This document shows, piece by piece, positions 16,136 to 62,684 of a DNA stretch of 64,000 nt; position 1 is the first letter of the stretch; every line of letters starts with the position of its first letter. The notes under the pieces were generated by a model. That model did not search any database. It saw nothing but the letters and a program-made list of their open reading frames with translations, and was not told the origin of the DNA. The DNA is taken from contig JACOEL010000001.1 of assembly GCA_024998625.1 (NCBI GenBank), forward strand, positions 372,001-436,000. The letters run 5' to 3'. Position numbers and translations under genes: made by a program. The DNA comes from Nitrospira sp. GTDB taxonomy: Bacteria; Nitrospirota; Nitrospiria; Nitrospirales; Nitrospiraceae.

Positions 16136-16238
16136 AATTTCCTTCGAGCACTAGACCTTTCTTCCATCCCGTCCGTCGTAGTGAGTGAGTCGTCAAGACG
16201 GCCGCACACCCTCGCACCACGACGGAAAGGACCAAGCA

Positions 16239-18803
16239 ATGTTCGGAACCATTACGACGCACCGCACTCGTCGGGAAGCCTCGGCCCGACCAGGCACCTG
16301 TACCGCCATTCACGTACTGCTCTGCAGTCTTCTCCTGATGCTTGCAAGTCATGGCGCCTTCGTCCACGCGCAAGAGCGGTCTTCGACGGCGTCGCGATCC
16401 TTTGCGATTGCCCCGCAGCCCCTGTCTTCCGCCCTGCTTCAGTTTTCGGACGCGACGCACATCGAAGTGTTGTTCGATGCGACCATCGCCCGCGATCGCC
16501 AGACGCAAGGCGTCTCCGGCGACTACGTCCCGGAGGACGCTTTACGCATGCTGTTACACGACACAGGCCTCTCCTATCGCACCACGAGCGTCGGGAGCGT
16601 CACGCTCGAGCAGGCCGCCGGCCTCCCGACCGTGCCGGCTCCGGCTGTTCAAAGTCCGCCGGCAGACCCCACGCCTCAGGCTGGGCCGCGTCCCGCCGCC
16701 CAGAAGTCGGTGAAGGTCCCGGAAATCGTGGTGAAGGACGTCCGTGAGCGCGACGACGATGCTCAGACCTATGTCGCCGAGGAATCCACCACGGCCACCA
16801 GGACCGATACGCCGATTCGCGACGTGCCGCAGTCGATTCAGGTCATCACACGCAAGGTCATCGAGGAACAGCGCACCTTCCGGCTCCAGAATACGCTGGA
16901 AAACATTTCAGGGATCAACGCGACGGACTCCGCGGCCTCGCTTTACGACAACCTCATCCTGCGAGGATTCGCAGCCACCGACCGGAGCTATTTCCGCAAC
17001 GGGCTGCTCGACCCCTTCGCTCAATTTACGGCGTCGGACACCTACAATGTACGCCGGCTCGAAGTGCTGAAGGGTCCGGCGGCCGTGCTCTATGGACAGG
17101 GGGATCCCGGCGGTGTGATCAACATCGTCACGAACAAGCCTCTGCCTAACGCCGCCTATTCCTCCAATGTGACGTTGGGGAATTTTCACTTCTACCGGTC
17201 CGAACTCGACGCCACCGGTCCTCTCAATGCCGATAAGACCGTGCTCTATCGTCTCAACGTGGCTGGGCAGAAAGCCGGCAGCTACATCGACTATGCCAAT
17301 CGCGATCTCGCGGCCATCGCGCCGAGCATCACCTGGCTCATGAGCTCCCGCACCACCCTGACCGTCGAAGCCGACTACCTGCGCCGCTGGAGCAACGACC
17401 CCTACGGATTGCCGGCTCAAGGAACTATTCTTCCCAACCTCAACGGGCCCATTCCGCGCAACCGTTCCGTCACCCTCGGCGACTTCAGTACGTTCAACCG
17501 CACCTCGTACCGCTTCGGGTATGACTTGACGCATCAATTCAACGACAAATGGTCCATTCGAAATGCGTTCAGGCATACGATCACGGAGGATGACAATAAT
17601 AATTTATACGCATCCCCCGCATTCCTGGAGCCCGATCAACGAACGCTTCAACGGTTACAGGTCCTGCAACCGGGAGTTGCCCGGCGGCATGCCAATTCCA
17701 TGGTCACGAATGTGGTGGGCCATCTGCGTCTCCTCGACATGGATCACACCCTATTGACCGGCGTCGAACTACGGCAGGAGAAAACTGATCAGTTTATCTT
17801 TACCTTTGCCGGAGCGCCTCCCCTGGATCTCTTTGCCCCGGACTTTTCCCTCAGTCCGCTGCCTTTTGACGGGAATAGGGCCGGCTTCAAAGCCGACAAC
17901 AAGACCGCCGCCGCGTATGTGCAAGATCAGGTGACCATTCTTCCCAATCTGAAATTCATGGGTGGCCTCCGGTTTGATTACGTCCATCAATTCCAACAAT
18001 CCTTGGGTGGAGCGCAACAGACTTCGGATAACCATGCGGTCAGCCCCCGGCTAGGCCTCGTCTATCAACCGATCGAACCCCTCTCGCTTTACACGTCATG
18101 GACCAAGGGCTTCCAGCCGAGTTCCGCCGCCTCCTTCAATCCCAACGGTGAGCTGTTCAAGCCGGAACGGTCCACGCAGTACGAAATCGGCATGAAAACG
18201 TTCCTGCTCGACAACCGCCTCTCGGCGACCCTCGCCTGGTTCCACCTGACCCGCGAAAATCTACTCACCCCGAATCCTGATCCAGCGCTGGCGTTCCAAG
18301 GATTCTCGGTGCAAACGGGTGAGCAACGCAGCCAAGGCATCGAATTAGACATCACCGCCCAACTGATGCCGGGGTGGAACGTCATCACCGGCTACGCCTA
18401 TACCGACGCGGAAGTCACGAAAGACAATGACCTGTCGTTGCTCGGCAAGAGACTGGCCAATGTGCCTTACAATAAGTTCACCCTCTGGTCTACCTACTAT
18501 GTGCAGGAAGGCGTTCTTCGGGGATTCGGATTCGGCGGCGGCCTCTTCGCCTATAGCAATCGCAGTTCGTCGATCTTCGGAGATCCGGTCGAAATCCCCG
18601 GTTACATTCGTGCCGACGGCGCGTTGTACTACAACCGAGAGCTGCAGAAGGACAATTGGGTGGGAGCGAAGAGCATGCATCTCGCCCTTAACGTGCGAAA
18701 CTTGCTGGATCAGCGCTACGTCGCGACATCCTATAACGGCTCGCCCCTCTTCTTCTTTGGCGAGCCTCGAACAGTGTTGGCGACGGTAGGGCTGCGGTTC
18801 TGA
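16239..18803 (+). CDS. TonB-dependent siderophore receptor with STN signalling domain (second)
   Basis: 854 residues. ATG at 16239 follows GGAAAGGA at 7 nt and begins a long signal region ending near FVHAQE. The STN domain (about 50-120) reads FAIAPQPLSSALLQFSDATHI and GDYVPEDALRMLLHDTGLSYR. The TonB-box region VPEIVVKDV matches the first receptor. The plug has DVPQSIQVITRKVIEEQ and VRRLEVLKGPAAVLYGQGDPGG. The barrel carries YTSWTKGFQPSSAASF and FKPERSTQYEIGMKTF, typical of siderophore receptors, and ends in the aromatic strand GLRF. It is directly downstream of FecI/FecR and upstream of its energising TonB-ExbBD genes. It probably takes up the siderophore made by the NRPS operon or a similar ligand. 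Confidence 0.94.
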   Translation: MFGTITTHRTRREASARPGTCTAIHVLLCSLLLMLASHGAFVHAQERSSTASRSFAIAPQPLSSALLQFSDATHIEVLFDATIARDRQTQGVSGDYVPEDALRMLLHDTGLSYRTTSVGSVTLEQAAGLPTVPAPAVQSPPADPTPQAGPRPAAQKSVKVPEIVVKDVRERDDDAQTYVAEESTTATRTDTPIRDVPQSIQVITRKVIEEQRTFRLQNTLENISGINATDSAASLYDNLILRGFAATDRSYFRNGLLDPFAQFTASDTYNVRRLEVLKGPAAVLYGQGDPGGVINIVTNKPLPNAAYSSNVTLGNFHFYRSELDATGPLNADKTVLYRLNVAGQKAGSYIDYANRDLAAIAPSITWLMSSRTTLTVEADYLRRWSNDPYGLPAQGTILPNLNGPIPRNRSVTLGDFSTFNRTSYRFGYDLTHQFNDKWSIRNAFRHTITEDDNNNLYASPAFLEPDQRTLQRLQVLQPGVARRHANSMVTNVVGHLRLLDMDHTLLTGVELRQEKTDQFIFTFAGAPPLDLFAPDFSLSPLPFDGNRAGFKADNKTAAAYVQDQVTILPNLKFMGGLRFDYVHQFQQSLGGAQQTSDNHAVSPRLGLVYQPIEPLSLYTSWTKGFQPSSAASFNPNGELFKPERSTQYEIGMKTFLLDNRLSATLAWFHLTRENLLTPNPDPALAFQGFSVQTGEQRSQGIELDITAQLMPGWNVITGYAYTDAEVTKDNDLSLLGKRLANVPYNKFTLWSTYYVQEGVLRGFGFGGGLFAYSNRSSSIFGDPVEIPGYIRADGALYYNRELQKDNWVGAKSMHLALNVRNLLDQRYVATSYNGSPLFFFGEPRTVLATVGLRF

Positions 18804-26260: not shown

Positions 26261-29200
26261 TCAGTTCGGCAACTCGGACAGTCCAGCGAGGCGATCAGCA
26301 ATTTGCTGATGGACATGGATGCTCTGCACGGCATCCACATGGTCTCCGACCACCGTGTCCACCGACACCTGGCTGGTCGTATGGGCCGACCAGTCGACCG
26401 GGCCTCGACCGTGTCTCTCCAGGGTCCTCGTCGTCCACCAGGCGTGGATCGGCGCCTGGATCGGATGGGATCGCGTGAGGCTGAGAAACCGTGCAGCCTC
26501 TCTAGCCAACGCGTACCCAATTTTCAGCGATTCAATCGAGGCCCCCGCTTCCTCCTCGGACAGAAGTTTCCGTTGCCGGGCCCATTGAATCGCACACTCC
26601 AAGCGATCGTCTCCGATCAACGAGGCCAGACGCTGCTGAAGCGCCTCTCGCTCCTCCTGAGGAATCGAATCGAACGCGTCTCTCCGATCCCATCGTAAGT
26701 ATGTCACGAGTTCCGCAACAGGCGTCTGTTCATGCGCCACGGAAAGCGCCTGATTCGGTTGTGTATCCAACAGCCCAAGAAACGCCACGGATTCACCGGC
26801 CTGCTCCAAGGCTCGGGCCACCGCCAGCGCCAGCACACCGCCGTTGGACCAGCCCAGGAGATGATAAGGGCCGTGCGGCTGACGTTCGCGAATCAGCCTA
26901 GCCTGTTGATCGGCAAGTCGCGGAAGAGATACGTCCTGCCAACGCATGGAAAAGAGATAGCTTAATGACAGCCCAAAGACCAGTCGGTCATGCTCCATCG
27001 AAAGGGCAAGAGGACGGTACGCATGGACGTGAGCTCCATCTGGATCAAAGCAGAAGAGAGGCGGCAGCAGTCCGCCTCGCTTCTGCAACTCAACCACGTT
27101 GGGAGCAAGCACGGAAGGGTCCTCCAATCGTCTCGCTAACTCGCGCACAGTGGGGGCCTGAAAAATCTCAATCATGGATAGCCTTCTCCCGACCGCGTTC
27201 TCAATGTTGGCGATCAGTTGGACCGCTAACAGGGAGTGACCTCCCGAATCGAAGAAGTTATCGTCTCGGCCGACACGAGACAGACCAAGCACCTCACCCC
27301 AGATAGCAGCCAGCCGCTGCTCCATCTCAGTGGCTGGAGCCTCATAGGCCACCGTGCGCTGCGTCTCTGTATCCGGAACGGGCAAGGCCCGCCGATCCAC
27401 CTTTCCGTTCGGGCTCAGTGGCAAGTGGTCGAGCACAAGGATCATCGACGGCACCATGTAGTCCGGTAAAGTCAGACTCAGGGCCTGCCGCACCGCTCCC
27501 ACCTCGAATGTGTGATTCGGCAGAGTCGTCACATAGGCCACCAGATGCGCGCTCACACTCTCGCTCGACCGCGCCAACACGATCGCTTCCCGGATTCCCG
27601 ACTGCTGACGCAGGGCCTGTTCGATCTCTCCCAGCTCAATTCGGAATCCGCGGATCTTCACCTGATGGTCCAAACGCCCCAGATAGTCGATGGCTCCGTC
27701 AGCTCGATACCGCACGAGGTCGCCCGTTCGGTAGAGACGCTGACCGGGCTGCGCGGTGAATGGATCCGGCACGAATCGCTCGGCCGTAAGGGCCGGCCGA
27801 CGATGATACCCTCTCCCGACCCCGATGCCACCGATATAGAGCTCGCCCGGCACGCCGACCGGAACCGGCTGGCCTGATGGATCGAGCACGTAGATCTGAG
27901 TGTTGGCAATGGGGCATCCGATCGGTACGGTGGGGGCCGGAGGGACCGGACAGGTCCAGGCCGTCACGTCGATAGCCGCTTCGGTGGGCCCATAAAGGTT
28001 GTGCAGCGCCACGCCGGGCAACTGTGCCTGAACGCGCGGAGGGAGCGTGGCTGGCAAGGCTTCGCCGCTACAGACGATGTGTCGAAGGGATCGGCAGGTT
28101 TCAACACCAGGGCAGTTGAGAAACGCCTGCAGCATGGGCGGAACAAAATGCAGCGTCGTGACGTCATGCTCGACGATGTGCTGAATCAGGCGGGCCGGTT
28201 CCTTGTGGGCGCCAGGCGAAGCCATCACCAATTCCGCCCCGATCATTAACGGCCAGAACAATTCCCACACGGACACGTCGAAGCTGATCGGGGTTTTTTG
28301 CAGCACGCGGTCGGCAGCGGTCAGGCCATAGGCCTCCTGCATCCACTGCAATCGATTCCGTAGACCGTCATGAGTGTTGCCGGCGCCCTTAGGCTGTCCC
28401 GTTGACCCGGAGGTGTAGATGACATACGCCAATTGTTGCCCAGTGAGAGCCGCCGGCGGCGGGGTCGTCGCCTGCGCGACAAGGGTCGGCCCATCCCGAT
28501 CGAGACACACCGTGGGGCCGATATGCGCCAACCGGAGAGCTTGGGCAGCATCGGTTACGAGCATAGCCGCTTGACTATCAGTCAACATGTAGCGAAGGCG
28601 TTCGACCGGATAACTTGGATCAAGCGGCACATAGGCTGCCCCTGCTTGCCACGTGCCGAGCAAGGCGACGGCCAAGTCAAGGGACCGTTCCAACGCCACT
28701 GCAACGAGTTGCTCGGGTCCGATTCCTCCCTTACGCAACACGTGGGCCAATTGGTTCGCGCGAATCAACAGTTCGCCATACGTGAGGGTAGCCTCACCGG
28801 CTCGCACCGCGATGGTGTGTGGGTTCTTCGCTGCCTGTGCCGCAATCAACGCCGGCACGGTCCGTTCCACAGGATAGGCCCGCGCCGTCCTATTCCATTC
28901 CTCCACAACCTGTGTTAGCTCGAATTCCCCCAGTAACGGCAGGTCAGCCAGCTTCTGCTGCGGATGCGAGACGATGCCCCCGAACAACGTGACAAAATGA
29001 GCGAGCATGCGCTCCGCAGATCTCCTCTCGAAGAGGTCGCTGTTGTACGCCATGGACACATCTAGACGTCCTTCCGTCTCTTGCACCGTCATCGACAGAT
29101 CGAATTTCGCCGTTGCGGGTTCAATCTCAATCGGCTGAAACTCCAAGCCGCTGACGGCTACCTCTGGCAGAGGCGCATTCTGGAGGTCAAACATGACTTG

Positions 29201-32200
29201 GAAAATCGGGGAGCGACTCACATCGCGCTTCGGTTTCAGCGCGTCCACCAGCTTTTCGAAGGGCAAGTCTTGATGGGCATACGCATCTAAACAGGCATCA
29301 CGAACGTTACTGATCACCTCGGCCGACGTGGCGTGAGCAGACACTTGAATCCGTATTGCCAGGGTATTGACAAAGAAGCCGATCAGGTCTTCCGTCTCTC
29401 TCCGCGTCCGGTTGGCGATCGGCGTGCCGACGATGAGATCCCCCTGACCTGTCATCCGATACAAGAGGATGAAGAATCCCGCCAACAGCGTCATATAGAG
29501 TGTGGCGCCCATCCTGTGGCTCAGGGCAACGATCTCCGACGAGAGCGCCGCGGTCATGCTCGACGTGACCATGGCTCCTCGGGAAGTGTGTACCGCAGGT
29601 CGAGGCCGGTCGGTCGGCAATTCCATCACCGGCAATTCGCCTCCCAACGATGCTTTCCAGTATTCCAATTCCCGCTCCAGGACGGAACCGGTCACCCAAG
29701 CCCGCTGCCACTGGGAAAAATCTCCATACTGCAGAGGCAGGTCGGACAGTGACGAGGCGCGCCCAGCCCCAAAGGCATCGTAGAGTGCCGTCACTTCCTT
29801 CACCAGGATATGAGCCGACCAGGCGTCCGACACGATATGATGCAGCGTCAGCAGCAAGACATGTTCGGTCTCTTTGAGTCGGAGGAGGCTCACCCGCAAC
29901 AGGGGACCATACCGAAGGTCAAACGGCCGTTGTGCTTCGACCGTGGCCAGCCGAATCACAGCGTGGTCGCGCTCCCCTGCTGGGAGGTGCTGTAGCTCGA
30001 TGAGTTGAACCGGCAGCCGCAGTACAGGCGTGATCACCTGCGATGGAATTCCATCAAGGCGCTGAAAAGTCGTACGCAAGGCCTCATGGCGCCGAACGAC
30101 TTCGTTGAAACTTCGCTCCAGGGCAGCCACGTCGAGCGCTCCGATGACCCGCAGGGCGATCGGAATGTTGTACGCCACGCTGTCCGGTTCCAACTGTGCC
30201 AACATCCACAGTCGCTCTTGGGCAAAGGAGAGCGGAATGGGACCGCTTCTGGAAAGTCGCCGCATGGGAGGAGGTTGTTCAGAGCCTCCGAGCCCCTTTG
30301 CGCCGTCGATCGCATCGGCTAATTGCGCGATGCTGGGAGACTCGAAGATCGTCCGTAAGGGCAAGTCCACACGAAACGCCTGTCGCAAACGAGACATGAC
30401 TTGCGTGGCCAGCAGGGAGTGGCCGCCCAGGTCGAAGAAGCTGTCATGGATGCCGATCCCCTCGCGCTTCAACACTTCGATCCAGATAGTGGCTAGGATC
30501 TCTTCCGTGGCCGTCCGAGGCGCGACGAATCGTCTCTCGCCGGCCCCCTCGGAGGCCGGCTCCGGCAGAGCGCGCCGATCCACCTTGCCGTTCGCTGTCA
30601 GCGGCAGCGCGGGCAGCGCGGTCACGGTCGTTGGAATCATATAGTCCGGCACTCGCGAGCGGAGAACGTCCAGCACTTCCCGAACCTCCGGCTCCTGCCC
30701 TCGCGCGACGATATAGGCCGCCAGAAATGTCTCCCCCCTCGCATCCTCTCTGGCGGTCACCACGGCATCCTGGATCCCGGGATGTTGTCTCAGTCCGGCT
30801 TCGATCTCTCCCAGTTCGACCCGGAAGCCGCGCATTTTCACTTGATGGTCGACCCGTCCCAGGAACTCGATCGACCCGTCAGGTAAGCGACGCGTCCTGT
30901 CGCCGGTTCTATAGAAACGGCTACCAGGCTGCGTTGCATAGGGATTGGGAACGAACCGCTCGGCGGTTCGATCCGGCTGGCCCAGGTAGCCTCGCGCGAC
31001 GCCGGCACCACCCAGATAGAGCTCTCCCGCCACACCAACCGGCACCAGCTCGTGCCGCTCGTCGAGGATGTAGGCTTGCAGATTGTCGATGGGCTGTCCG
31101 ATGGGCACCGTGCTGCTGAGGCGCATCCCATGCGGGTCATCCACTACACCGGTCAGGGCACCGACGGTCGTCTCGGTCGGCCCATAATGGTTGAGGAGGG
31201 TGCAGGGGGCTGCTTGTCGGCGCACCTGATCGACCAATTCCCACGAAAGAGGCTCGCCGCCGAAAATGAGATAGGTGCGCGGGTACAGGGCTTGACCATC
31301 TCCGGTCGCCAGCAGAGCCTTGAAGTGGGACGGCACGATTTTCAACACATCGATCGGTCGTTCCGCTAGGTACGCGCCGAACAGCCGCCCATCCGTCGCG
31401 GTCTCATAACTGATGACATGAAGACAACCGCCGGATATCAAGGCAGGAAAGATCGCGGTGTTGCCCAAGTCGGCGCTCAAAGTCGAGACCGTCGCAAACT
31501 GCAAAGGCTCAGGTCCTTCCAACTTCCTGGCCAGCGCAAGGGAGTAATTCGCCAGGTTTCGATGCGAAACCGCGACCCCCTTGGGCACACCGGTGGACCC
31601 GGATGTGTAGATTACATAGGCCAACTCATCGGGCGACAGACTGATCTGCAGATCGGTGTCGCTCTCCTCTACGAACGCGGATGCGAGATCGAGCGTCATG
31701 CCCTCGAAGCTGATCCAGGCCTGCGCTGCTGATTCCTGCGTCAGCAGGATCGAGGCGTCGCTCTGCGTCATCTGCGACGCGAGTCGCACGGCAGCTTGAG
31801 CGGGATCGACCGGCACATAGGCCGCGCCCGCCTTGAGCACACCCAGCAATCCCACGACCATCTCAGCGGAGCGGTCCAAACAAAGACCGACCCGGTCGCC
31901 CGGTCTCACCCCGCGCCGCCTGAGCCCATGAGCGACCCGGTTGGCCTGCCGGTTGAGTTCCGCATAAGACAGGCATCGATCTCCGGCAACAAGAGCCGGC
32001 GCGTCAGGCCGACGCCTCGCCTGCGTTTCAAACACCTGATGCATCAAGAGGGGGGTATCAACCCGTCGGGCCGTTTGATTCAGCTCACGAATAAGCCGGA
32101 CCCGCTCCTTCGGCCCCAGAATCGTGAGGCCGTCGACGACAGCAGCGGGGTTATCAGATACCGAACACAGCATCTCCATGAACAGATCGGCGATGGAGGG

Positions 32201-33418
32201 AAGAACGTCAGCCGGAAATCGTCGTGGGTCGTAGTGCCAAGTCAAGCGGAGGCTCGCCTCCTCACGCAGACAACTGAGCCGAAGCTTGAATGGCTCCGCA
32301 CAACAATCTGTTTCGATGAGGGTGAGGGTTCCTGCTGCCGACTCGAATGGACCGTTCCCGTCGGCATAGTCGAGTCCGATCGCATCCGGCATGAACGACT
32401 CGGCGTCTCCCCCAAGCTCCGCAGGGAGATAGTGCTGCCATTCCTCCGCCTGACGTTGTTCCTGGAGGACCATGGAGAGGAGATCGCGGAAGGGCTGTTT
32501 GCCTTCAATTTGAAGGTGCAGCGGCACCCAACGCTCGAACAGGCCGATCCCTCCCTGCAGCTCCTCATAAGGGCGCCCGTCCGACCGCCACCAGCACACG
32601 ACGTCACGCCGCCCGGTCACTCGAAAGAGCAGGATCGACCAACACGCATGCAGCAACCACGCTACCGGAATCTCCATAGCGGAGGCCAGACGATCCAGTC
32701 GTCCGAACTCGGTGGCCGAGAGGTCACGACGAAGCCGGGAGAACGGACGCGCTCTTCCCTCTCCCAGGCCTGGCCGTTCGAACGGCAAGATCAACGTGTC
32801 AGCTCGACCCGGCAATCGCTCAGCCCACCAGGCGCGTCCCTGACGAGCGTCGTCGCCGTCAAGCAATTCATGCAGCCACTCGGAGAATTGCCCGTATTGT
32901 ACCAGCCTCTCATCCTCCTGTCCGCCGACCCTCCCTTCGTAGAAACGGCTGAGTTCAGCCGCGAGGATGGTCAGCGACCAGGCATCTGCGCAGAGACCAG
33001 GCAGGTCAAGAATCAACCGCGACCGTGACTCCGTCAGACGGCAGAATGTGGCATACACCAACGGGCCCCGTTCCCAATCCAGACCGGCGGTCTGCCGAGC
33101 GGCCTCCGCCACACCCTGTTCCTGTTCGCGTTCGTCGGAGAGGTGACGGAGATCGATGCTTCGCCAGGCGGGGTGGATCTGCTCTCGAACGACTTGAAAG
33201 GGCACCTTCATCCCGGGCTCCTGGTAGAAAGTGGTGCGAAGGCTCTCATGCCTGGCCAGCACCCGACAGAGAGCCTCCCGCATCATGTCGCTTTCGAATG
33301 CCCCATCCAGACGGAACGAGACCCGGGCATTCCCAGTATAACCACGTTGCTGCAGCGCCCACAGTCGCTTTTGTTGAGGCGACAGCCTGAGGCCCTGCAC
33401 TTCAATCTCTTGTTGCAT
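26261..33418 (-). CDS. NRPS (fourth in line): C*-A(Asp)-PCP-C-A(Ser)-PCP-TE
   Basis: 2385 residues; final synthetase of the line. An N-terminal condensation-superfamily domain (about 10-440) has lost the HHxxxDG motif (LPGLCADAW at about 140) and has [12 protein letters not shown] where IGLFVNTLP is usual. It is a candidate interface domain for a beta-hydroxylase. A1 (about 465-960) gives the by-eye code DLTKIGHVGK, aspartate-like. PCP1 has LGGHSLL near 996. C2 (about 1060-1490) has HHIVSDAW. A2 (about 1520-2010) gives DVWHVSLIDK, serine-like, with [10 protein letters not shown] at 1672. PCP2 has SGGHSLL near 2059. The TE (about 2130-2370) has GWSNGG and GDHVDAV as Ser and His of the triad, for hydrolysis or cyclisation. 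It starts 8 nt after the third NRPS. Confidence 0.93.
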
Positions 33419-33426
33419 CCCTCCCC

Positions 33427-36400
33427 CTATCGCCTCACGACATGGACGGCCGATTGAGCCACCATGTCGCCCATTGCCACGACGATTTTTCGAGGCCCGA
33501 CGAACGGATCGCGGGCGTGCGCCACCAGCATATTGTCCAGCATCACGAGATCGCTCTCCTGCCAGGGAAACCGAACCGCCGTGCGTTCGTACAATTCGCC
33601 GATTTCATCGACCACCTCGTCTTCGATTGCAGTGCCGTCTCCGTAGTAGACGTTTCGCGGCAGAGAATCGATACCGAGCATCGACAAGAGCGATTCACGT
33701 ACCGCCGGCTCCAAACAGGAGACATGGTGGAGTTGGATCTGGTTGAAAAAGACCGACTCGCCGGTGTCGGGATGTTCGATGACGGCCGGACAGACCTGCC
33801 TGGTGCGCAGACCATCCTTCTCCAACCATTGGCAGACCATGCCGTTCTTCGCGCAGAGCTCTTCCACGACCGCCTTGTCGGTCGTCCGGAAAAAATCCTG
33901 CCAGCTGACATCCACACCCGGGACGAAGTGACGAACATACATGAGCTGCCTGGTCCGCAAGCGTTCACGCAGCGCCGGCCGAAGCCCTTGCAGCATGAGA
34001 CGGCCGTCCACGATCGGCGTCTGCCCCCCTTCCTGCGCGGCCTGCAGGCAAAAGAAGAACTGCTTCTGCGGCCAGCGATGCATATGGGAGCTTTCGTTGT
34101 GGAAGAGAATCGGTTTGTCAGACGGATAGGGTGTGGAGCCGTAGACATGGCGCCCGCTCTGTTCCCTCGGCAGGTCGCCGTACTCCCCGAACAACTCCTG
34201 GCATACCGCTTGTGCAACCGCTTCGAATTCCGGCACCGTCTTGAGCGGGAAGCCGCGAAACAGCACGGCACCGTGTTTCAGCAACTGTCCTTGCAGCAGT
34301 GAGCGATGTTCCCGGACCCATCCAGCCAGATCGACATCGTCGACGGCCGGAGTATACAGCCACGGAAGCGACTGGGCCTCGCTCAGGGGACGACCGATCA
34401 CCAACGTACGTTGTGACAGGGTCACGGCTTTCGGCTTGATGTTCTTGAATCGTTGCAGGCGTTGCTCGTTCCGTTGTTTGATTTCCATGCTGCGCGCCTC
34501 CTTTGCATCCATACCTTCCAGGTCGAGCCGGTCGATCCTGAGTTCAGGCGACTGCCCGATCTCTTTCAATAAGAGGAGGAACCGCTGCGTCCATCCGGCA
34601 ACCGTTTCACACTCAAACAGGTCCCGGCTGAACTTCCACAACCCGGAACATCCGTCCTCTGCCTCTTCCATGAAGAGTCCCATGTCAAACCGCGACACCT
34701 CATGCTCGAACTCCAATGCCTCGACGCTTACGCCGGTCAATTGCAACGACGGAGGAGGCACGTTTTGCAACACGAACAAGACCTGCACCAGCGGATTCCG
34801 TCCGGGGTCGCGAGCTAATTTCAGAGATTCCACGATCTTCTCGAACGGCACATCCTGATGTGCGTAGCCGCCCAAGGCCGTCTCGCGCACCCGCCCCAAC
34901 AACTCCACGAAAGACGGACTGCCGCTCAGATCCGTGCGCAACGGAAGAAGGTTGACAAAAAACCCCACCAGATGCTCTGTTTCGGCACGGTTGCGGTTGG
35001 CGACATCGGTGCCCACGAGGATGTCGGTTTGCCCGCTGCAGCGAGAAAGGAGCACCTTGAACGCCGCCAGCAAGGTCATGAACAAGGTTACGCCGTGGCG
35101 GCGACTCAAGAGCTTGAGCGGCTCCAGGATCTCCAACGGCACATGAAACGTGGCGCGGCCGCCTCGATACCGCTGAACATCCGGACGCGCATGGTCCGTC
35201 GGAAGCGCCAACTGAGGCGGTGCGGACCCGAGCCGCTGTTTCCAGTACCCGATTTCCCGCTCCAACAGGGCACCTTGCAACCACTGTCGCTGCCAGGCGG
35301 CGAAATCGCGGTACTGAACGGGCAAGTCTGGCAGCATCGTATCCAGCGCCTGCTCCAACACCTCCTCCGATCCCTCCGGCAGCGCGGCAAGCGCGTTGTA
35401 GATCGTCGCGATTTCATGCGTCACCAACGCCAGAGACCAGGCGTCGGCCGCGATGTGATGCACCGTCACGAGCAACAGATGCTCCTCAGTGGTCAACGCC
35501 ACCAGCGTCGCGCGGATCGGCAAATCGCGCTCCAAGAAGAACGGTTGGTACGCCTGCGAGTCCTCAATCTGACGGACCGCCGCCGTGCGCTCCTCGTCGG
35601 ACAGCCGAGTCAGGTCCTCGATCGGCATCGAGAAACGGTCTGCCCCCACGACAACTTGCCGCGGTTCTCCGTCGGAAGCTGGGAAGATGGTACGCAACGC
35701 TTCATGTCGGCGAAGGAGTTCGAGGAAACTGCGCTCCAGAATCCGTCCGTGCAGCGCCCCCCTGAGCCGTAGTGCAAACGGAAGATTGTACGCTCCACTC
35801 TCCGGATCCATCTGTGCCAGGAACCAGAGGCGTTGCTGTGCAAAAGACAACGGCATGTGATCAGTCCGCGGCGCGGCGATAAGCGGCGGCGCCGCCCCAC
35901 CCTCCCCTTTCATCAGGGTCTGGTCGACTGCCGTGGCAAAGTCTTTGACGGTCGGACGATCGAACAACGTCCGCAAGGGAAGCTCAACGCGAAACGCCGC
36001 GCGCACCCTGGACAGGACCTGTGTGGCGAGCAACGAATGGCCGCCGAGTTCGAAGAAATTGTCGAGAGTCCCGACGTGCGGTATGGCCAGGACATCGGCC
36101 CATAACCCGGCGATCAATTCTTCGGTCGGCGTATGAGGACCTATCTGGCGATCGTTCGCCGGGCTGTATGCAGGAGAGGGGAGCGCCTTGCGATCCACCT
36201 TGCCGTTCGGGGTGAGCGGAAAGGTGTCGAGCATGACGAATGTCGTTGGAATCATATAGTCAGGAAGTTGCTCGAGCAGGAAGCGTTTCAGCTCATCCGG
36301 CGACACTGGCGAACCCGCTTCGGGAACGCAATAGGCCACAATTCGCTTGTCACCCTGTGCGTCGCGAACGGTGACAATACTGCGACCAATCTTCGGGTGC

Positions 36401-39400
36401 CGACTCAGGCAGGTCTCAATCTCGCCCAACTCGATCCGATAGCCGCGCACCTTCACCTGATGATCGATCCGTCCGAGAAACTCCAGGGTACCGTCTGCCT
36501 GATAGCGAGCCTGGTCGCCCGTCCGATACAACCGAGCGCCGGGCAGTCGACTGAAGGGATCGGGAACAAATCGCTCAGCGGTCAGGTCCGGCCTCTGCCA
36601 GTAGCCGCGCGCCACCCCCTCACCGCCGATGTAGAGTTCCCCCGGGACACCAATAGGGGTAGGCATGACGTTCGCATCGAGCACATAGATCTGTGTATTC
36701 GCGAGGGGATGGCCCAGTGGAACGATTCCGTCGACGTGGTCCACGCGGGTGAGCATGGACCACACCGTGGTTTCGGTCGGGCCGTAGAGATTCCACATCT
36801 CACACCCGCGCGCCTGAAATGCCTGCGCCAATTCAGGCGGACAGGCCTCGCCGCCGCAGAGCGCCCGCAGCCGAGGAATCTCCGCCGCATCGAGTAACAA
36901 CCGCCACCCTGAGGGCGTCGCCTGCATGATCGTCGCCCCAACCTGTTCCAACTTCTGCGCCAATCGTTCCCCGTCGACGACCATGTCACGACTGATGACG
37001 ACCGTCCGCCCCCCCACGATCAGCGGAAGGAAAAGTTCCAACAGGGCGATGTCGAAAGAGATCGATGTGGTGCTGGCCATGACTTCACCATCAGCCGGCT
37101 GCAGCGCCTCTTGCATGGCCAAGAGAAAATTCACCGCGCTCCGGTGGCGAACCATCACGCCCTTGGGTCTGCCGGTCGACCCCGACGTGTAGATCACGTA
37201 GGCCAGATGCTCGGACATGTGGTTCACGAGCGGCTTGTCCGTGGATTCCTGAGCGATCAGCGTCCAATTCTCCAGGTCGATCCTGTGGAGCGCCGTTCCG
37301 CCGAGGTCCTCCAGGAGCCGTCCCTGCGTCAGCGTCACGGCGATACGAGCATCCTGGAACATGTAGGCCAGGCGATCTTTGGGATAGGTCGGATCGAGCG
37401 GAACATAGGCAGCGCCGGCTTTCAAGACCCCCAGCATCGCCACCAACAGGTTCGCCGATCGTTCCACACAAATACCGACCGGGACGGCCGGTCCCACAGC
37501 GCGCTTCAGCAACGCATGGGCCAGTTGATTGGCACGCGCATCCAGTTCCCGATACGTGAGATGCACGTCTTCGAACGAGACCGCGATCCGATCGGGTGTC
37601 CGGTGAACCTGTGCTTCGAATAACTCATGGAGGCATTGATCTGAAGGAAAGGACCGTTCGGTGTCGTTCCAATCAACCAGCAGATGTTGCCGTTCCTCCT
37701 GCGACAGGGCGGACAATTCTGACAACCGGGCATCAGACCTCTCGATCATGCCGTCGATCATCGCCGCCCAATGGCGTACGATCCGGCCCACCATCTCATC
37801 GCTCATACGCTGCCTGTCATAGGAGAAGATCAGCGTAAGTCGGTCTTCCGGAACCACAGTGATCGTGAGCGGATAGTTCGTCCATCCCTCCACATCAACG
37901 GCTTCGATGCCGAATGTCTTGCCGTACTCTTGAACGGCCTCGTCGAGCAGATAATTTTGAAAGACGAGTACGCTGTCAAACAGCGACGTGCCTCGTCGGA
38001 TCTCGCTCCACCCTTGAACCTGCACCAAGGGACTGTACTCATACCGACGCAGATCGACATTGCGTGTCTGGATCTCTCGAAGCCACTCTGGCAATGAGGT
38101 CGTCGGCGCGACCAGCAATCGCAGAGGCACCGTGTTGATGAACAGACCCAGGATGGCATCCCCGGCCGGCACCTCTTCCGGACGGCCGGACACGGTCACA
38201 CCGAACAACACGTCGCGCTCGCCGCTGTAGCGTGAAAGCAACAGCGCCCAGGCTGCTTGTACGACCGTATTCAGCGTCACGCGACACGATTGAGCCAACC
38301 GTTGAAGGGCGCGCAACGTGTCAAGGGACACATCCAGGCGTTGCTCGCCGTAGCGTACGCCGTCGGATGCGCGCTGCTCAGTCCGTTCCGGCAGCCGCGT
38401 CGGCTCATGGAATCCTTGCAGATAGTTTCGCCAGAAGGTCTCTGTCCCCGCGATATCTTGTCGCAGGAACCATTGGATATAGTCGCGATACGAAGGACCC
38501 GGCTTCGGTGTCGAGACCTCGGCACGTTGAAGGGCCTCATAGGCGGTCATAACTTCCTGAACCAGCAGCCCCTGGCAGGAACCATCAAGAATGGCGTGAT
38601 GGAGACTCCACACCATCCACCAGGAATGCTCCCCGCGACGGATCAGGGCTAGCCGCATCAACGGAGCTTGATCGAATGCAAAACCGCGGGCACGATCAGC
38701 AGCCAGATAGTCCTGCAAAGCCGCTTGTCTGCTTGTATCATCGGCAAGGTTTCGCCAATCGAGCCGCTCCACCGGCAGGCGCACGTGACGAAAGACGGCT
38801 TGCAGTGGTTCAGACGCAGCCTCGGACAGAAATCCCGTTCGCAGCACGGCATGTCGATCGACGGCCTGCTGCCACGCCTGCTCTAATGCGTCAGGATCAA
38901 GGCCTTGGGTAAACGCATAGACCACGTGGTTGTGATAGGCCCCGTCCTGTTCACCATGCAGACTGTGAAACAGCATGCCTTGTTGCATCGGAGAAGCCGG
39001 ATAGAGGTCCTCGATGGCCCCCTCGTATGTGGCGAGCAAGGACTGCAACCGTCCGGGCTCAAGCCTGGCCAGAGAAAACGGCGCTGCAGGCACCGTCTCC
39101 TGCGTGGATTCCTGCCCGCTCTGCACCGGAGCAGGCTCCTCAAGGAGGGCTGCGATTGCCGCCACCGTCTGGTGTTGAAAGACCAGTTTCGGCGTCAGTT
39201 TGACGCCGGCTCGATGGGCCTTCCCCACGATCTTCAGACACAGAATCGAATCTCCGCCAAGATCGAAAAAATTATCGTGCACGCCGACCTCTTCGACATG
39301 CAGCACTTCTCCCCAGATGGTGGCAAGCGCCGACTCGATCGCCGTACGAGGCGCCGCATACGAGAGTGCCGCGCCCGCCGCCTGTTGCGTCGGATTCGGC

Positions 39401-42315
39401 AATGCGGCTCGATCCAACTTCCCGTTCGCCGTCAGGGGGAAGGATTCCAGCGCCACGATCGTGTGGGGCATCATGTAATCGGGTAGTTGCCGTGCGAGGG
39501 CAGCGCGTATCGCGGCAACATCGAGCGTCGAAGGTCCCGTGACATAGGACACCACTTGCTGCGCTCCGTCGTCGGCTGTACGGACGACCGTAACGGCATC
39601 CATCACGCCCGATTCACGACGAAGGCTCGCATCGATCTCCCCGAGCTCGACTCGAAATCCTCGTAATTTGACCTGATTATCCACGCGACCAAGAAACTCG
39701 ATCGTGCCGTCGGTTCCATACCGAGCCCTGTCGCCGGTACGATACAGACGCCCGCCTGGGCGAAGTCCGTAGGGATCGGGGATAAATCGTTCGGCCGTCA
39801 ATTCGGGACGTTGAAGATACCCACGAGCCAGACCCTGTCCGCCGAGATACAATTCCCCAGGCAACCCTGCCGGCATCGGCTGAAGATCCCGATCAAGAAT
39901 ATAGGCCTGACTGTTCGCCAAAGGCCTGCCGATGGGCATCGCCGCACTGGTGTGGGCCTGTTCCTCCAATCGATGCACGAGCACACCGACCGTCGTTTCG
40001 GTCGGCCCGTAATGGTTGACGATCGCACAATCCGGCGCCAGCGCTCGGATTCTTCCGATCAGGCCTTCGCGCGCGCTTTCGCCACCGAGCATCACACAAT
40101 GCCGCGGCAAGACCCATGACGGGTGTTCCGCTTCCAAGAGGCCGGCCAGGTGACTCGGAGCAATTTTCAGTACCTCCACTCGATGCTCATGCATGTACTC
40201 GGCCATCGCGTCGGGATCGAAACCCCGGTCTGTCGAGAGCACATGCAGCGGGCGACCGGAACAGAGCGCGCCGAAAATGGCGGTATTGCCCAGATCGGCG
40301 CCGACGGTGGAGACCATGGCGAAACTCGCCGCTTCCGGCAACGCCAATCGATCCAAGAGACCCTGCACGTAGTTGACCAACTGACGATGCTCCACCACGA
40401 CCCCCTTGGGACGACCGGTCGAGCCGCTGGTATAAATCACGTAGGCGGCATGATCGGGACGAACCCAGCCGCCAATAGGGGCGTCCGAACAGGCTTCGAT
40501 CGCGGGCCGGTCGCGATCCACATACACTCGAGGGATTCCCGTGTCAGGAAGGGCTTCGCTCCATTTGCTGCCCGTCAAGACGATGTGGACACCGCTGTCA
40601 TCCAGCATGTACCCCACGCGCTCCGCCGGCAGTTTCGGATCGAGCGGAACGTATCCCCCTCCGGCCTTCAGGATCGCCAGCAGACCCACGATCAAATCCA
40701 ACGAACGCTCCATACACAGGCCGACCAACACTTCCGGTCCGACGCCTTTCGTTTTTAGATAGGCGGCCAGACGATTGGCCCTGCCGTCCAATTCGCGCCC
40801 GCTGAGCACCTCTCCCTCGTACACTAGGGCAACCCTGTCGGGATGTTCACGTACAGACCGTTCAAAGAGGTCATGGACGCATGTAGGCGCCGGCGGTTCG
40901 GGCGATTCGACCGCAATGCCCCGCCCCTGCGCCAACACCAGTCGCCGTTCATCTTCGCTCAACGGCGAGAGGTCGGCCAGACGGAGATTCCCATCCGACG
41001 CGAGCCGTCCCAACAACGTCACGTAATGACGGAGCATGCGCGATATCGCGGCATGGCTGAAACGGCTTCTGGCATAACAGAGGATGAGGCGGACCTCTGC
41101 GCCCGGTTCCGCCATCAGCGACAAGGGATAGTTATTACGCCCGGCGGTAAGCGTATAGGCGCCTTTTTCTTCGAGAGACAGGGGACTGATTTTCAGCCCT
41201 TCTTGCTCTCCGGTCGATTCATCCTCGGGAAAACTCTCGAAGACGACGATTGTGTCGAACAGGGAACGGCCCGCCGGAATCTCGCTCCAACGTTGAATGC
41301 TCGGCAAGGGCGTCCATTCGTACTGTCGGATGGCGCTGTTCTGTTCCTGCAGCGCTTGCAGCCAGGTCGCCACCGTCGCGTCGCCCGGCAACGAGACTCG
41401 GACCGGCATCGTATTGATGAACAACCCAACCATGCTGTCCGACTCCGGCAATTCTGCAGGGCGACCGGACACCGTGGATCCGAACAGGACTTCAGCCTCT
41501 CCGCTGTACCGGCTCAACAGCAATGCCCACGCCCCCTGCACGACCGTGTTGATCGTGAGTCGATGCCGCTGCGCGAAGCCTTTCAGTGCATCCCGTTGCT
41601 CATCGGACAACTGAATGTCCTGCTCCGCATACGGCAAATGGTCGTGCGACTCCGCCTCCTGATGTTCCTCCAGCGATAGAACAGTGGGCGTTCGAATGCC
41701 GGCCAATGAGGCCCGCCAAAACGCCTCGGCCGCGCCAAGATCCTGTTTACTCAACCAGGTGATGTAATTGCGGTACGGAGGCGGCGACGCGATCTTCACT
41801 GGACGCCCTTGCCGCAAGGACTCGTACGCGGTCACTACGTCTTTGAGCAGCAAGGCGACGCTCCACCCGTCTAACAGGATATGGTGGTGGCTGTTCACGA
41901 GGTACCAGGTGCGATCGTCGACCGCGATCAAATGCAGGCGCATGAGCGGCGGCCGGAGAAAGTCGAATCCTTCCTGGCGGTCGCGCTGCAACAACGATTC
42001 AAGGGCCTGTCGGCGCTCCGCCGGCGCCAATGTCCGCCAATCATGGCGCTGGATCGGAAGCGACAGGGTTCGACACACGATCTGCAGGGGGTTGTCCACA
42101 CCTTCCCATACGAAGGCGGTGCGCAAGATCGGATGCCTCTGGACCATCTGCTGCCACGCCTGCTCGAAGGCGTCGTACTCCAACGCGCCTTCCATCAGAA
42201 AGGTGTAGTGGCAAAAATACGGATCCGTCTCTCCTTCGGCCACCCGATGGAACAGCAGCCCTTCCTGAAGCGGGGATAGGTAATACATCGATTCGATATT
42301 TTTCTTATCCTGCAT
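33427..42315 (-). CDS. NRPS (third in line): C-A(Asp)-PCP-C-A(Gly)-PCP-C-TauD fusion
   Basis: About 2960 residues. C1 (HHHILLDGW at about 146) follows an epimerase-ending synthetase and should act as a DCL domain. A1 ([10 protein letters not shown] at 629) gives DLTKMGHVGK, aspartate-like; PCP1 LGGDSI near 1022. C2 has HHAILDG near 1252; A2 (TSGSTG near 1716) gives DILQLGLVWK, glycine-like; PCP2 LGGHSLL near 2096. A third C domain (HHIAADAW near 2292) is followed not by A-PCP but by a basic linker and a TauD/SyrP-type Fe(II)/2-oxoglutarate dioxygenase (about 2630-2963). Its HNES (His-x-Glu) and MLDNMLVAH (distal His) should bind iron, and RKIVVAM supplies the 2-oxoglutarate Arg. The missing A-PCP lies at the start of the fourth NRPS. 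ATG at 42315 is preferred over the overlapping GTG at 42318. Confidence 0.93.
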
Positions 42316-45300
42316 CACTTCCCCCCCATTCGCTCAACAATGGCATCCAACGCCTGCTGCTCGATCTCCACGTCCGGGAAGTCCGATGGCGTGTATCCTC
42401 CCGCGTCCGGCGACACACAATGCGCGATCAGTTCTTGCAACAGGCGCAAGCAGGTGTGGCTGACACTCTCGACCGTGGCCTGCCGATAACGGTGCCTGCT
42501 GTAGATCCATGTCATGTTCAAACGCCCCTCCAACACCTCGGCGCTGACGTACAATTCATACGGAAGCCGATTGTGCGGAGCATGTTCCATTCCCGGCGAT
42601 TCGGTCGCCAGCGCAAGGAATGAGTCTTCGGACAGGGCTTGATCCAATTGTCCGAGATAATTGAAACTGATTGGCGCATCCGGATAGGTCCTGAGACGTT
42701 CGCTCGCCGGGCCGGCGTGAAGATACCGCAGCAGACCGTACCCAACTCCCCGGTTCGGAATCCCGCGAAGTTGTTCTTTCACCGCCTTCAACGTCTCGCC
42801 GACCGGCGCCTCGGAACGGACCTCCAGCAACACGGGAGCGACGGCGGTAAACCATCCTACCGTGCGGGAGACGTCGAGCTCGGGAAAGAGATCTTCCCGT
42901 CCGTGGCCTTCCAGATCCACGAGCACAAGCGTACGCTCCGTCCATCGCGCAATCGCCTGTGAGAGCGCGGTCAGCAACACATCATTGATCTGGGTCTGAT
43001 AGGCGGCCGGAACCTCTCGGAGAAGGGCTCGCGTTTCCTCTTCGCTCAACGAGGCCGTCACGCTAGTACTGGAAGCTTCCGTTCGATCACCGGCCGGATC
43101 ATCAACCGGCAACTCCGCCGCCATCGCCCGGCGAGGATCGATCCAATAGGCCGCTTCCTGTCGCACCTCTTCCGACTGCGCATGCTGATGAAGGCGTTCC
43201 GACCATTGTTGAAACGAGGTGCTTTTGGGGGGAAGCCTGATCGCCTCCCCTCGACGACGCTGGGCATAGGCCTGTTCCAAATCTTCCAACAGAATCCGCC
43301 ATGACACCCCATCGATGACGAGGTGATGAATGATGAGCAACAACCGGCCGGCTCGTAGCGGCCCCATGTCGAACCAGACCGCGCGGAGCAGCGGCCCATC
43401 GACAAGCTGCAGGCTCGCCTGCCACTCGGTAGCCAGCGTCTCAAACCGTTCCTGCTGCTGAGTCTCTGAGAACGTGGAGAGATCAACCCGATGCGCGACG
43501 GCAGTCTCGGCCTCCATGCCGATCTGCTGATGCCACTCACTCTCGTCCTGGGTGAAGCGCGTTCGCAGCACATCATGCTGCTGCAAAAGTTGGTGTGCGG
43601 CCGCTTCAAATGAAGGCCAGTCGAGCGGTTCTCGCACCTCGAACAACAGCGATTGATTCCAATGAGTCGGATCGGGCAACTGCCGCTCGAAAAACCAGTG
43701 CTGGATGGGCGTCAACAGGACCGGGCCCGTCACCAATCCCTGTTCAGCGTTCAGGAGGCTCCCCCCGCCGTTCATTGCTGCGTGATCCAGTTCCGCCACG
43801 GCGGCCAATTCGGCCGGAGTCTGATGCTGGAACATCTGCCGCGGCGTCAGCACCACTCCTGCCTGTTTCGCGCGAGCCACGATCTGGAGCGCAACGATGG
43901 AGTCGCCACCCAACTCAAAGAAATTGTCATGAATACCGACTCGCTCGACTCCCAATACGTCGGCCCAGACGCTCGTCACTGTCTCCTCGACCGCCGTACG
44001 AGGCGCCACCCACTGCCGTTGGTGATCTGCCGAATCGGGAACCGGTAACGCCGCACGATCGACCTTCCCATTCGGAGTACGCGGCATCATGTCCAACGAG
44101 ATCACCGCGGACGGCACCATCGATTCGGGCAATTGTTCACGCACTCTTCGGCATAATCCGTCTCCATCGCGGATCGCGCCTTCGTACCACGTGACATAGG
44201 CAACCAACCGCTTCTGTCCCGGCTTGTCTTCACGCACGACCGCCGCGGCTTCGCGAATGCCTGCGTACTCGTGAAGCCGGGCTTCGATTTCACCCAGTTC
44301 GATCCGCACCCCCCGCAACTTGATCTGGTGATCCAGTCGCCCCAGAAATTCGATGGTGCCATCCGACCGATACCGGGCCACATCACCGGTCTGGTAGAGG
44401 CGCGATCCCGGTTCGTCGCTGAAGGGGTCCGGGACGAAGACCGCGGCCGTTCTTGCCGGATCGTTGAGATACCCGCGACCGACTCCAGGCCCCGCCACAC
44501 ACAACTCTCCGGCGGCGCCGACCGGAACCGGGGACAACCAGCGGTCCACAAGATAGACCCGCATATTGTCGATGGGTCGACCGATCGGCATGTGTAACGC
44601 CTCCACCGTCGGAGGGTCTGCGATCTCCGCCATCGTGACATCGTCCGCACATTCAGCCGGACCGTACGCGTTCAGCAACGGCACGGAGGGATACCGCTCC
44701 AACCAGCGTCGGCTCAGGGTCGGCGAGAGTGCTTCACCGGTCGGCAGGAGCCATCGGAGGGTCGACAACCACACCGGTTCGACGACCGCGTCCAACATCG
44801 CCTGCAGCAACGTGGGGACCGTTTCCAACACGGTCGCTCCCTGCTCGTAAAGATAGCGCGGCAAGGCATGCGGATGATGGGCGATCTCGTCGGGAACGAT
44901 GAGAGTCCGGCCTCCGCACAGCAGGGCCGTGAGACATTGCCAGACAGAAATATCGAAACAGAGCGAGGCCGTCTGTGCGATCACATCGTCGGCGCCCAAC
45001 CGAAGCATGCCGAGTTTGCTCGTGAGGTGGTTGAGCAAACCACGTTGTGTGACCATAGCGCCTTTCGGCACACCCGTCGAGCCACTCGTATACATCACAT
45101 AGGCGAGCTGAGAAGGGTTGTGCGTCCGAGATTGCACCTGCGCGTCCCCGTGTTCACGAGCAGCGTTCGGAAGGCTATCGATCCTCACCACCTGCGGCCT
45201 CAGAAACGGCGGAACCAATTCGATCGCCTCAGCCAGTCTGGTCTGCCACGCACTCGACGTGAGGACCACTGCGGCTCCGCTCAACATCAAGATATCCGCC

Positions 45301-48300
45301 CACCGCTGCGCGGGATGACCGAGGTCAAGCGGGAGATACGCACCACCGGCCTTGAAGATTCCCACCAGCATCGCGATCAGGTCGGCATCGCGCTCCTGCA
45401 ATACCGCGACGACGGCATCCGGTCCCACACCCTCTTCACGCAAAGCACGGGCAATGCGAATGCCGCGCTCATCCAGTGCTCGATAGGTCAGGTGCTGTGT
45501 TCGACCGACCACGGCGACGGCATCAGGCGTCTTGCCGACTTGCTCCTCGAACCGTTCGGCAAAAGAAGCCTCCACCGGCGCCGACCTCCCGGTATCGTTC
45601 CACTCGACCACCACACGGTGACGTTCCGACTCCGTCAGCAACGGCAACTCGCTCAGGCGAGCCGTCGGATCCGCGACGATCCCTCGCAAGAGCTGTTGCA
45701 GGTGCAGGGCCATTCGTTCGATGGTCGAGGCATCGAACAGATCCGCATTGTATTCGAACACCGCGTCCACGCCTGCCGGTCCGTCGAGCATGTCCAGCGA
45801 CAAGTCAAACTGCGCGCTGCCTGGGTCCACCTCGAGCACGTCGATGTCGAATCCCGGCATTTTCAACAGGCCGGAAGACAGGGTTTGCAACGCAAACATC
45901 ACCTGGAACAGCGGCGTATGGCTGAGTGCCCGCATGGGTTGCAGCTCATCGACCAACTTTTCAAACGGTAGATCTTGATGGGTTTGAGCCCCCAGCACCA
46001 CTTCCTGCACCAGCCCCAACAGGTCGGCAAAGGTGGGATTTTTTGAAAGGTCGGTCCGCAAGACCAAGGTGTTCACGAACAGACCGATCAGCGGCTCGAC
46101 CTCCATTCTGGTGCGACTGGCGATGGGTGTTCCAATGCAGAGGTCGGTCTGGTTGCTGTACCGAAGGAGCAACACTTGGAATGCTCCCAGTAACGTCATA
46201 TACAGCGTCACACCATACCGGCGACTCAGCAGCCGCAACTGCGCGACCACCTCTGCCGGAATCGTGAATTCATATTGCGCGCCGTGATGTCGCTCGACTG
46301 CTGGCCGTGGCCGGTCCGTCGGCAGCGCGAGCACGACCGGCGCACCATCCAAATTCTTCTTCCAATAGGCCAGCTGCGACTCCAACACCTCTCCCTGCAG
46401 CCACTCGCGTTGCCACTGCGCATAATCCGCATACTGGATGGGTAGGGGCGGAAGCAGCGCAGGCCGCTCGGCAGCGAAGGCCGTATAGAACGACATGATT
46501 TCATGAGCCAACACATTCAACGACCAGCCGTCGGCGATCACGTGATGCAGCGTCAGCAACAGGACATGCTGCCGGTCCTCAACTTTCAACACGACGACGC
46601 GCCAGAGGGGTCCTCGACTCAGGTCGAACAGCCGTTGGGCCTCGGCCGCCGCCAGTCGCCGCACTTCCGCCTCTCGCTCGGCTTCGGGGAGTGATCGCAA
46701 ATCTACAACCGTGGCCGACAGGGCCGTCTCGGGCGCGATGATCTGTACCGGTTGATCGACATCGACGGTGAGCGTCGTACGGAGCACATCATGTCGGCGA
46801 GCCACGGCGTTGAGGGCGCGGTCCAGAATCGGCAGATCCAGCGGCCCCTTGATGCGCAGCCCGAACGGCAGGTTGTAGAACCAGCTGTCCGGTTCCAATT
46901 GCGCCAGAAACCACAACCGTTGTTGTGCGAACGACAGCGGAGCCGGCCCCGCTCGCCGCCCGGCCGTCAAGGCGGGAACCAGTCTGCCGTTTCCTTCCGC
47001 GCGAACCCGATCCACCGTCGCGGCCAAGTCGGCGACGGTCGGGCATTCGAAGGCGGCCCGCAACGGGAGCTCGATCTGAAACGCACTCCGGATGCGGGAG
47101 ACCACCTGGGTGGCCAAGAGGGAATGCCCGCCAAGCTCGAAGAAATGGTCCCGCATTCCCACGCGCTCCAGACCGAGGATGTCCGCCCAGATGCCGGCCA
47201 ACAACTCTTCCGTGACGCTCCGAGGCGGCACGTAGGTTGATCCGCCGGCGCCATCCAGGTCGGGAGCGGGCAAGGCCTTCCGGTCCACCTTGCCGTTCGG
47301 TGTCCGCGGCAACGCATCGAGCATGAGAAAGATCGACGGCACCATGTACTCGGGGAGCTGCGTCTGAAGCGCCGTTCGCAAGCGTTGGCTGTCGATCGAC
47401 TTGCCGGCCTGCGGCACGACATAGGCGGCCAACCGCCTCTCTCCCGGACGATCTTCGCGGACGATGACCGCCGCTTCGCGGACCTCGTCTTGATCGGTGA
47501 GGCAGGATTCGATCTCGCCGAGTTCGATGCGGAATCCGCGCACTTTGACCTGATGGTCCATCCGTCCCACGTATTCGATCGTGCCGTCAGGACGGTAGCG
47601 GGCCAAGTCGCCGGTACGGTAGAGCCTCGCCCCCGGCTCGGTTGAGAAGGGATCCGGCACGAACGCCTGCGCCGTGCGGACCCGATCCTCCACATATCCA
47701 CGACCGACGCCGACGCCGCCGATGCAGAGTTCGCCCGAGACCCCGACCGGCACCGGCGCAAAAAACCGATTGAGAATATAGAGCCGCAGGCGCTGAATGG
47801 CCCGCCCGATCGGCACCCGGACGGCATCCTCGGACGGCGCGGTCATGATGGGATGGACGGCCACATCGTCGGCGCATTCCGCCGGGCCGTAGGCGTTCAT
47901 CAAGGGAATGTCAGGGTGGCGCTCGAACCAGCGTCGGCAGAGGGCGGGCGGCAGGGCCTCGCCCGTCGGCAGGACCCAGCGCAGGTGCGAGAACCGGCGC
48001 GGGGATGCCGATGGGTCGCCTGCATCCAGCAAGGCCCGCAAGACCGCGGGTACGGCTTCATAGATGGTGACGCCGGCCTCGTCCAGGTGCGCGAGCAATC
48101 GTGACGGCTCTCGAACCAATTCGTCGGGCACGATGTGGGTCCGCGCCCCGCATTGCAGAGCGGTCAGGAATTGCCATACGGAAATGTCGAAACATTGGGA
48201 TGCGGTCTGCGCGATCACGTCGGTCGGTCCGATCGACAGGGAGGTCAGCTTGCTGTCGATGTTGTTGAGCATGCCGCCCAACGTAACCATCGCCCCCTTC

Positions 48301-57777: not shown

Positions 57778-57827
57778 CGAATACCTCCCACTCATGGTTG
57801 ACTACATCATGCTATCGACCGCCTGCA

Positions 57828-62653: not shown

Positions 62654-62684
62654 CACATCCTCCTCGTGACAGACACAGGTCCTC

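Follow-up and report, generated by a model that had tools for sequence, protein, structure and literature searches.

Is a biosynthetic module that is divided between two proteins, with a hydroxylase at the end of one and a degenerate condensation-like domain at the start of the next, a peculiarity of one genome or the usual form of its enzyme type? The question is raised by a 64,000-nt stretch of a Nitrospira sp. genome (contig JACOEL010000001.1, positions 372,001 to 436,000; the window, whose own numbering is used below), in which the third of four nonribosomal peptide synthetase (NRPS) genes ends in a condensation (C) domain and a TauD-type hydroxylase, and the fourth opens with a C-like domain followed by an aspartate-specific adenylation (A) domain and a peptidyl carrier protein (PCP). 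We conclude, with a probability of about 0.93, that this C-TauD / interface-A-PCP arrangement is a standard siderophore module for Asp β-hydroxylation, of the fused (IbetaH_Asp) type, with its gene boundary placed as in all relatives seen. The parts of this reading that can be taken from the sequence are the domain order, the ligand motif of the TauD domain, the loss of His from the interface domain, the monophyly of interface domains and the conservation of the split.

Both genes are intact open reading frames (ORFs; Table 1). Pfam searches of the third NRPS found three Condensation domains and a C-terminal TauD domain (residues 2661-2948), with no A domain or PCP following the third C domain; those of the fourth found two Condensation domains, two AMP-binding domains, two PCPs and a thioesterase. 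The motif HHIAADAW lies at 35437-35460, in the third C domain of the third NRPS, and LPGLCADAW at 32978-33004, in the first domain of the fourth. A preliminary description of this DNA had the third NRPS ending in C(HHIAADAW)-TauD without a following A domain or PCP, and the fourth opening with a C-like domain that lacks HHxxxDG and precedes A(Asp)-PCP; both points are confirmed, and its coordinates and motifs are correct. Its view that an 8-nt gene boundary falls within one functional module, C-TauD / interface-A(Asp)-PCP, is also supported. The junction runs from ...CGATAG through GGGGAGGG to ATGCAACAAG..., the stop codon of the TauD frame lying 5' of a stretch that resembles a ribosome-binding site. 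The gap reads GGGGAGGG before the ATG, so that the fourth NRPS gene is preceded by its own plausible ribosome-binding site.

That the domains on the two sides make one functional module, across a gap of just 8 nt, would also fit a single gene broken by a frameshift or an assembly error. With the opening domain of the fourth NRPS as query, a protein search of 296 genomes from the window's phylum found 18 close relatives, one of which is the window's own; querying with the fused TauD instead gave the same 18 genomes. In 17 of the 17 others the TauD-ending ORF stops before the interface gene, with a gap that is mostly about 8 nt and in a few genomes tens to a few hundred nt. As this junction is also present in 17 further genomes of the phylum, an assembly error is ruled out.

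In a wider survey, an alignment of ten TauD domains was scanned against GTDB species genomes and the best 80 named loci of 398 relatives were kept. These are the best-scoring loci and nearly all from Proteobacteria, so their counts do not represent an unbiased sample; the genera include Janthinobacterium, Duganella, Nitrococcus, Cupriavidus, Variovorax (with V. boronicumulans among them), Pseudomonas (with P. lactucae among them), Halomonas, Herbaspirillum and others. The TauD frame ended 5-28 residues past the match in 80/80 loci, and none continued into another domain. The next ORF, readable in 79 of the 80, started -8 to +25 nt from the TauD stop codon (with a 4-nt overlap in 28) and typically had about 1050 aa, which matches the length of interface-A-PCP. 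All 79 readable ORFs opened with the degenerate domain and none had HHxxxDG in its core, the lone HH match in this set (locus L077) lying outside the domain core. On the upstream side, a plain HHxxxD was missing within 520 aa before TauD in the same frame in 5 of 80 loci (L050, L055, L066, L072 and L116), possibly through draft-assembly breaks or variant motifs.

A stop codon and a new start at the same site in 17 other genomes of the phylum and in 79/79 readable named loci, together with the Shine-Dalgarno-like sequence before the fourth NRPS gene, leave a single broken gene with next to no likelihood, and we regard it as refuted by the conserved break; the frameshift or assembly join that the preliminary description had set against its own reading was tested and did not occur. 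The survey that it suggested, of how often C-TauD termini precede interface-A-PCP proteins, found the pairing in 79/79 readable named loci. Fusions of TauD to an interface domain were looked for in the 80 named loci and the 18 loci of the phylum, and none was found. The idea that the split itself is unusual is not supported, given its presence in 80/80 named loci, in 18/18 loci of the phylum and in published precedents. In two further genomes (L021 and L022), in one unit of the cyanochelin B cluster, in one of Leptolyngbya boryana and on one Methylocystis plasmid, the arrangement differs: a separate hydroxylase gene stands between a C-ending NRPS and an interface-A-PCP gene. Those of these hydroxylases that were included in the TauD tree fell outside the fused clade.

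The identity of the first domain of the fourth NRPS was assessed with a maximum likelihood tree of 67 condensation-superfamily domains, including 31 interface rows. All 31 fell on one side of one branch, implying one change (Shimodaira-Hasegawa-like approximate likelihood ratio test, SH-aLRT, 97). Inside this clade were CcsI of cyanochelin B and the Variovorax boronicumulans domain; outside it were all catalytic C and epimerization (E) rows, including the C domains before TauD, and the third C domain of the third NRPS grouped with the catalytic C domains. The domain of the fourth NRPS stood among its relatives from the phylum, next to the cyanobacterial ones, with the proteobacterial ones on the other limb. 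In motif-aligned interface domains the Asp was kept in 105/105 and the second, catalytic His in 0/105 (mostly A, P, R or G at that position), and HHxxxD was present in 36/36 other C and E domains aligned for comparison. An AlphaFold model of the domain (predicted local distance difference test score, pLDDT, 88) had a full condensation fold, with a Foldseek E value of 3e-33 and VIA Z scores of up to 38 to C domains in the PDB. Because the model is a full condensation fold and the His is lost across interface domains, this domain is, as judged from alignment and model, one whose fold is kept and whose catalytic residue is gone.

An ordinary or decayed C domain that still forms peptide bonds, in a tandem C-C arrangement, would account for the PF00668 match and the C-fold model, and some papers draw the partner domain as a plain C domain (PMC7100376). 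However, the catalytic His is lost in 105/105 relatives while the fold and the motif Asp are kept, the clade is separate from that of the catalytic C domains, and an intact C domain sits before TauD, which together make this arrangement very improbable. A catalytic C domain at this position is rejected by the motif counts and the tree, and the grouping with catalytic C domains that the preliminary description had named as a point against itself was tested and did not occur. The likeness that it had drawn to the interface domains of siderophore β-hydroxylases is upheld by the clade (SH-aLRT 97) and the motif counts, which support placing this domain with the partners of fused siderophore Asp β-hydroxylases and not with catalytic C domains. 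Such a domain has reportedly been proposed to position the hydroxylase and the bound residue, and the fused enzymes are said to stand at the carboxyl terminus of an NRPS. The A domain for the residue presumed to be hydroxylated directly adjoins it. Profiles for siderophore β-hydroxylases and interface domains are included in antiSMASH 8, which cites Reitz et al. 2019 for them and accepts both as parts of modules (PMC12230676).

For the first A domain of the fourth NRPS, comparison by eye with the GrsA positions gave the signature DLTKIGHVGK, one letter apart from the DLTKVGHVGK of the tistrellabactin A domain that makes hydroxy-Asp (Table 1 of PMC10391617). In the TauD tree, the domain of the third NRPS fell in the fused clade (support 100/100) with CcsFGH and the Variovorax boronicumulans enzyme, the cyanobacterial fused enzymes being basal. 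Its ligand residues (HNE, distal H, R) were invariant in both TauD alignments. A search of PHROGs with this TauD gave no match. The best plasmid-record matches to it were cyanobacterial fused hydroxylases, at up to 56% identity; as these closest plasmid-record matches are cyanobacterial, a CyanoBH_Asp label is possible for it. These matches and the gene neighbours common with L. boryana (see below) may reflect transfer between the two phyla.

A second TauD hydroxylase, encoded as a stand-alone gene, fell in a group with stand-alone enzymes from clusters of Azospirillum and Janthinobacterium (100/99). With one TauD in the fused clade and the other among stand-alone enzymes, both hydroxylase types occur in this cluster. 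The stand-alone enzyme probably serves the other Asp module, the first of the third NRPS, whose A domain has the Asp signature DLTKMGHVGK (read by eye). It is this module, on the same polypeptide as the fused TauD, that offers the fused enzyme another possible substrate. We consider this highly unlikely: the module that contains the interface domain is that of the fourth NRPS, the TauD domains of cyanochelin B and potashchelin precede an Asp module on the next protein, and the stand-alone hydroxylase is at hand for the other Asp.

In the fused-type module that we favor, the A domain of the fourth NRPS would load L-Asp onto the PCP of the same protein, and the catalytically dead interface domain would present Asp-S-PCP to the TauD domain with which the third NRPS ends. 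TauD would then make β-hydroxy-Asp, for which L-threo is expected by class, and the C domain before TauD would join it to the peptidyl-Gly that the third NRPS donates.

Several points weigh against this reading. The name "interface domain", introduced by Reitz et al. 2019, was taken from papers that cite that work, we found no structure of an interface domain paired with a hydroxylase, and the cluster in the window is known from its sequence. The stereochemistry at β-hydroxy-Asp is uncertain, as published assignments are opposed: the embedded type of variochelin is stated to give erythro (PMC10999976), whereas threo is reported for fused enzymes (PMC12628792).

The four NRPS genes lie close together on the minus strand (Table 1). 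Their A-domain signatures, read by eye, suggest Dab-Ser-Dab-Dab-Asp-Gly-Asp-Ser (Dab, diaminobutyrate) behind a lipid/polyketide synthase (PKS) start. The Dab, Ser and Gly assignments follow known codes, DIWELTADDK presumably being that of Dab. The Dab transaminase fits the three DIWELTADDK A domains of the first two NRPSs. Past the right end of the window we found FAAL-ACP-C-A, a PCP piece and a KS-AT-KR-ACP PKS. The FAAL-ACP-C-A ORF (1908 aa, contig ~440968-447340) has about 400 aa beyond the A core, in which the sole match, a weak one, is to a methyltransferase (PF13649, E 0.05); the C-terminal subdomain of the A domain and the PCP are encoded by a separate 214-aa ORF. A methyltransferase may here have been inserted into an A domain that was later split or frameshifted. 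The cluster is a probable lipopeptide siderophore cluster of Nitrospira. The Nitrospira 16S probe site Ntspa662 has an exact match in 5 of 29 genomes of the genus, with a 16S gene around it in both of the two that were inspected, so that Nitrospira is the probable host; the window's own assembly yielded no 16S match and none to AMO, for which the control was negative as well. The most likely product is a lipopeptide siderophore of the photoreactive type that carries two β-hydroxy-Asp ligands, the second of which would come from the stand-alone hydroxylase.

Table 1. Positions of the split module and of the surrounding cluster genes in the window.
Feature	Position	Strand	Basis
TonB-dependent receptor, adjoining a FecR-type regulator (15134-16135)	16185..18803	+	Domain search
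Fourth NRPS, interface-A(Asp)-PCP-C-A(Ser)-PCP-TE	26261..33418	-	Intact ORF, 2385 aa; Pfam; A signatures by eye
PCP predicted to carry the Asp to be hydroxylated	30308..30499	-	Pfam PF00550, residues 974-1037
A domain, signature DLTKIGHVGK (Asp)	30560..32041	-	Pfam; signature by eye
Interface domain, condensation fold, core LPGLCADA replacing HHxxxDG	32069..33418	-	Tree, motif counts, structure model
Intergenic gap, 8 nt, Shine-Dalgarno-like GGGGAGGG directly 5' of ATG	33419..33426	-	Sequence reading
Third NRPS, C-A(Asp)-PCP-C-A(Gly)-PCP-C-TauD	33427..42318	-	Intact ORF, 2963 aa; Pfam; A signatures by eye
Fused TauD, Fe(II)/2-oxoglutarate Asp β-hydroxylase, HNE ... H ... R intact	33475..34338	-	Pfam PF02668, 163 bits for the protein
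Third C domain of third NRPS, HHIAADA (DA in place of DG, His pair intact), condensing domain in the split module	34519..35862	-	Pfam, residues 2153-2600
Second NRPS, ending in an E domain, with DIWELTADDK (probably Dab) in two A domains	42315..50237	-	Domain search, A signatures, tree
First NRPS, Dab-type and Ser A domains	50240..56767	-	Domain search, A signatures
Stand-alone TauD hydroxylase	56743..57795	-	Domain search, TauD tree
Type II thioesterase	57828..58727	-	PF00975
Penicillin-amidase-type acylase	58863..61250	-	PF01804
Diaminobutyrate--2-oxoglutarate transaminase (Dab supply)	61247..62704	-	NF005393, 768 bits (cut-off 671)
Cyclic peptide export ABC transporter	62685..63941	-	TIGR01194, 373 bits (cut-off 286)

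An architecture that looks striking in one genome is thus routine for this enzyme type. The constant split provides a rule for annotation: a C-TauD terminus and the interface-A-PCP of the next gene are to be joined as one module, and the N-terminal domain of that next gene is to be labelled interface, not C. To a class described chiefly in Proteobacteria and Cyanobacteria, the analysis contributes a set of probable lipopeptide siderophore clusters from Nitrospira. Even for this taxon there is a precedent: in a 2026 survey, 15 of 307 Nitrospirota genomes had NRP-metallophore regions (PMC12971057). The one question that may repay further study is why hydroxylase and interface domain were never found joined. 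Selection on the break itself, with the hydroxylase having to act across a protein-protein joint (for example with the Asp-loaded PCP leaving and returning), would explain the finding of zero TauD-interface fusions in about 100 loci of three phyla, although other NRPS domains fuse freely; we hold it to be rather unlikely. Common descent from one split ancestor accounts for the constant break equally well, because in the trees the interface domains form a single group and so do the fused hydroxylases, with the exception of one Trichormus sequence.

Among known systems, the cyanochelin B cluster has the fused hydroxylase CcsFGH preceding CcsI, and the residue was assigned as L-threo-β-hydroxy-Asp by Marfey analysis and NMR (PMC12628792). 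We matched CcsFGH and CcsI to LEP3755_65800 and LEP3755_65790 of Leptolyngbya sp. NIES-3755 (plasmid 2) by position and order. As in the window, the NRPS ends in C-TauD, and the next gene, 17 nt on, encodes a degenerate domain (core LPALCAD) and then A(Asp)-PCP; FAAL and PKS steps are also in common. Unlike the window, the cluster is cyanobacterial and makes a different peptide, and its second, stand-alone hydroxylase is followed by an interface-A gene, whereas that of the window is not. The uncharacterised cluster on plasmid pLBX of L. boryana shares the C-TauD / interface-A-PCP split and an adjoining type II thioesterase, acylase and TonB receptor, but its TauD is 55.7% identical and its NRPS order is different.

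Potashchelin, with FAAL-ACP-C-TauD-C-A(Asp)-PCP and TauD at the C-terminus of PtcB, likewise combines one fused and one stand-alone hydroxylase (PMC7100376). The class formed by potashchelin (Halomonas), variochelin (Variovorax), cupriachelin and taiwachelin has the arrangement of the window, a fused hydroxylase at the C-terminus of one NRPS and a partner domain with A(Asp) opening the next. These clusters are, however, proteobacterial, and proteobacterial interface domains are only 19-27% identical to that of the window. In glycopeptide antibiotic biosynthesis, the X domain is a C-fold domain that recruits oxygenases (P450s) to the PCP-bound substrate. Our model of the interface domain matches the X domain of teicoplanin (4tx2, Z 32.1) in its condensation fold; the likeness drawn between the two concerns their working principle only.

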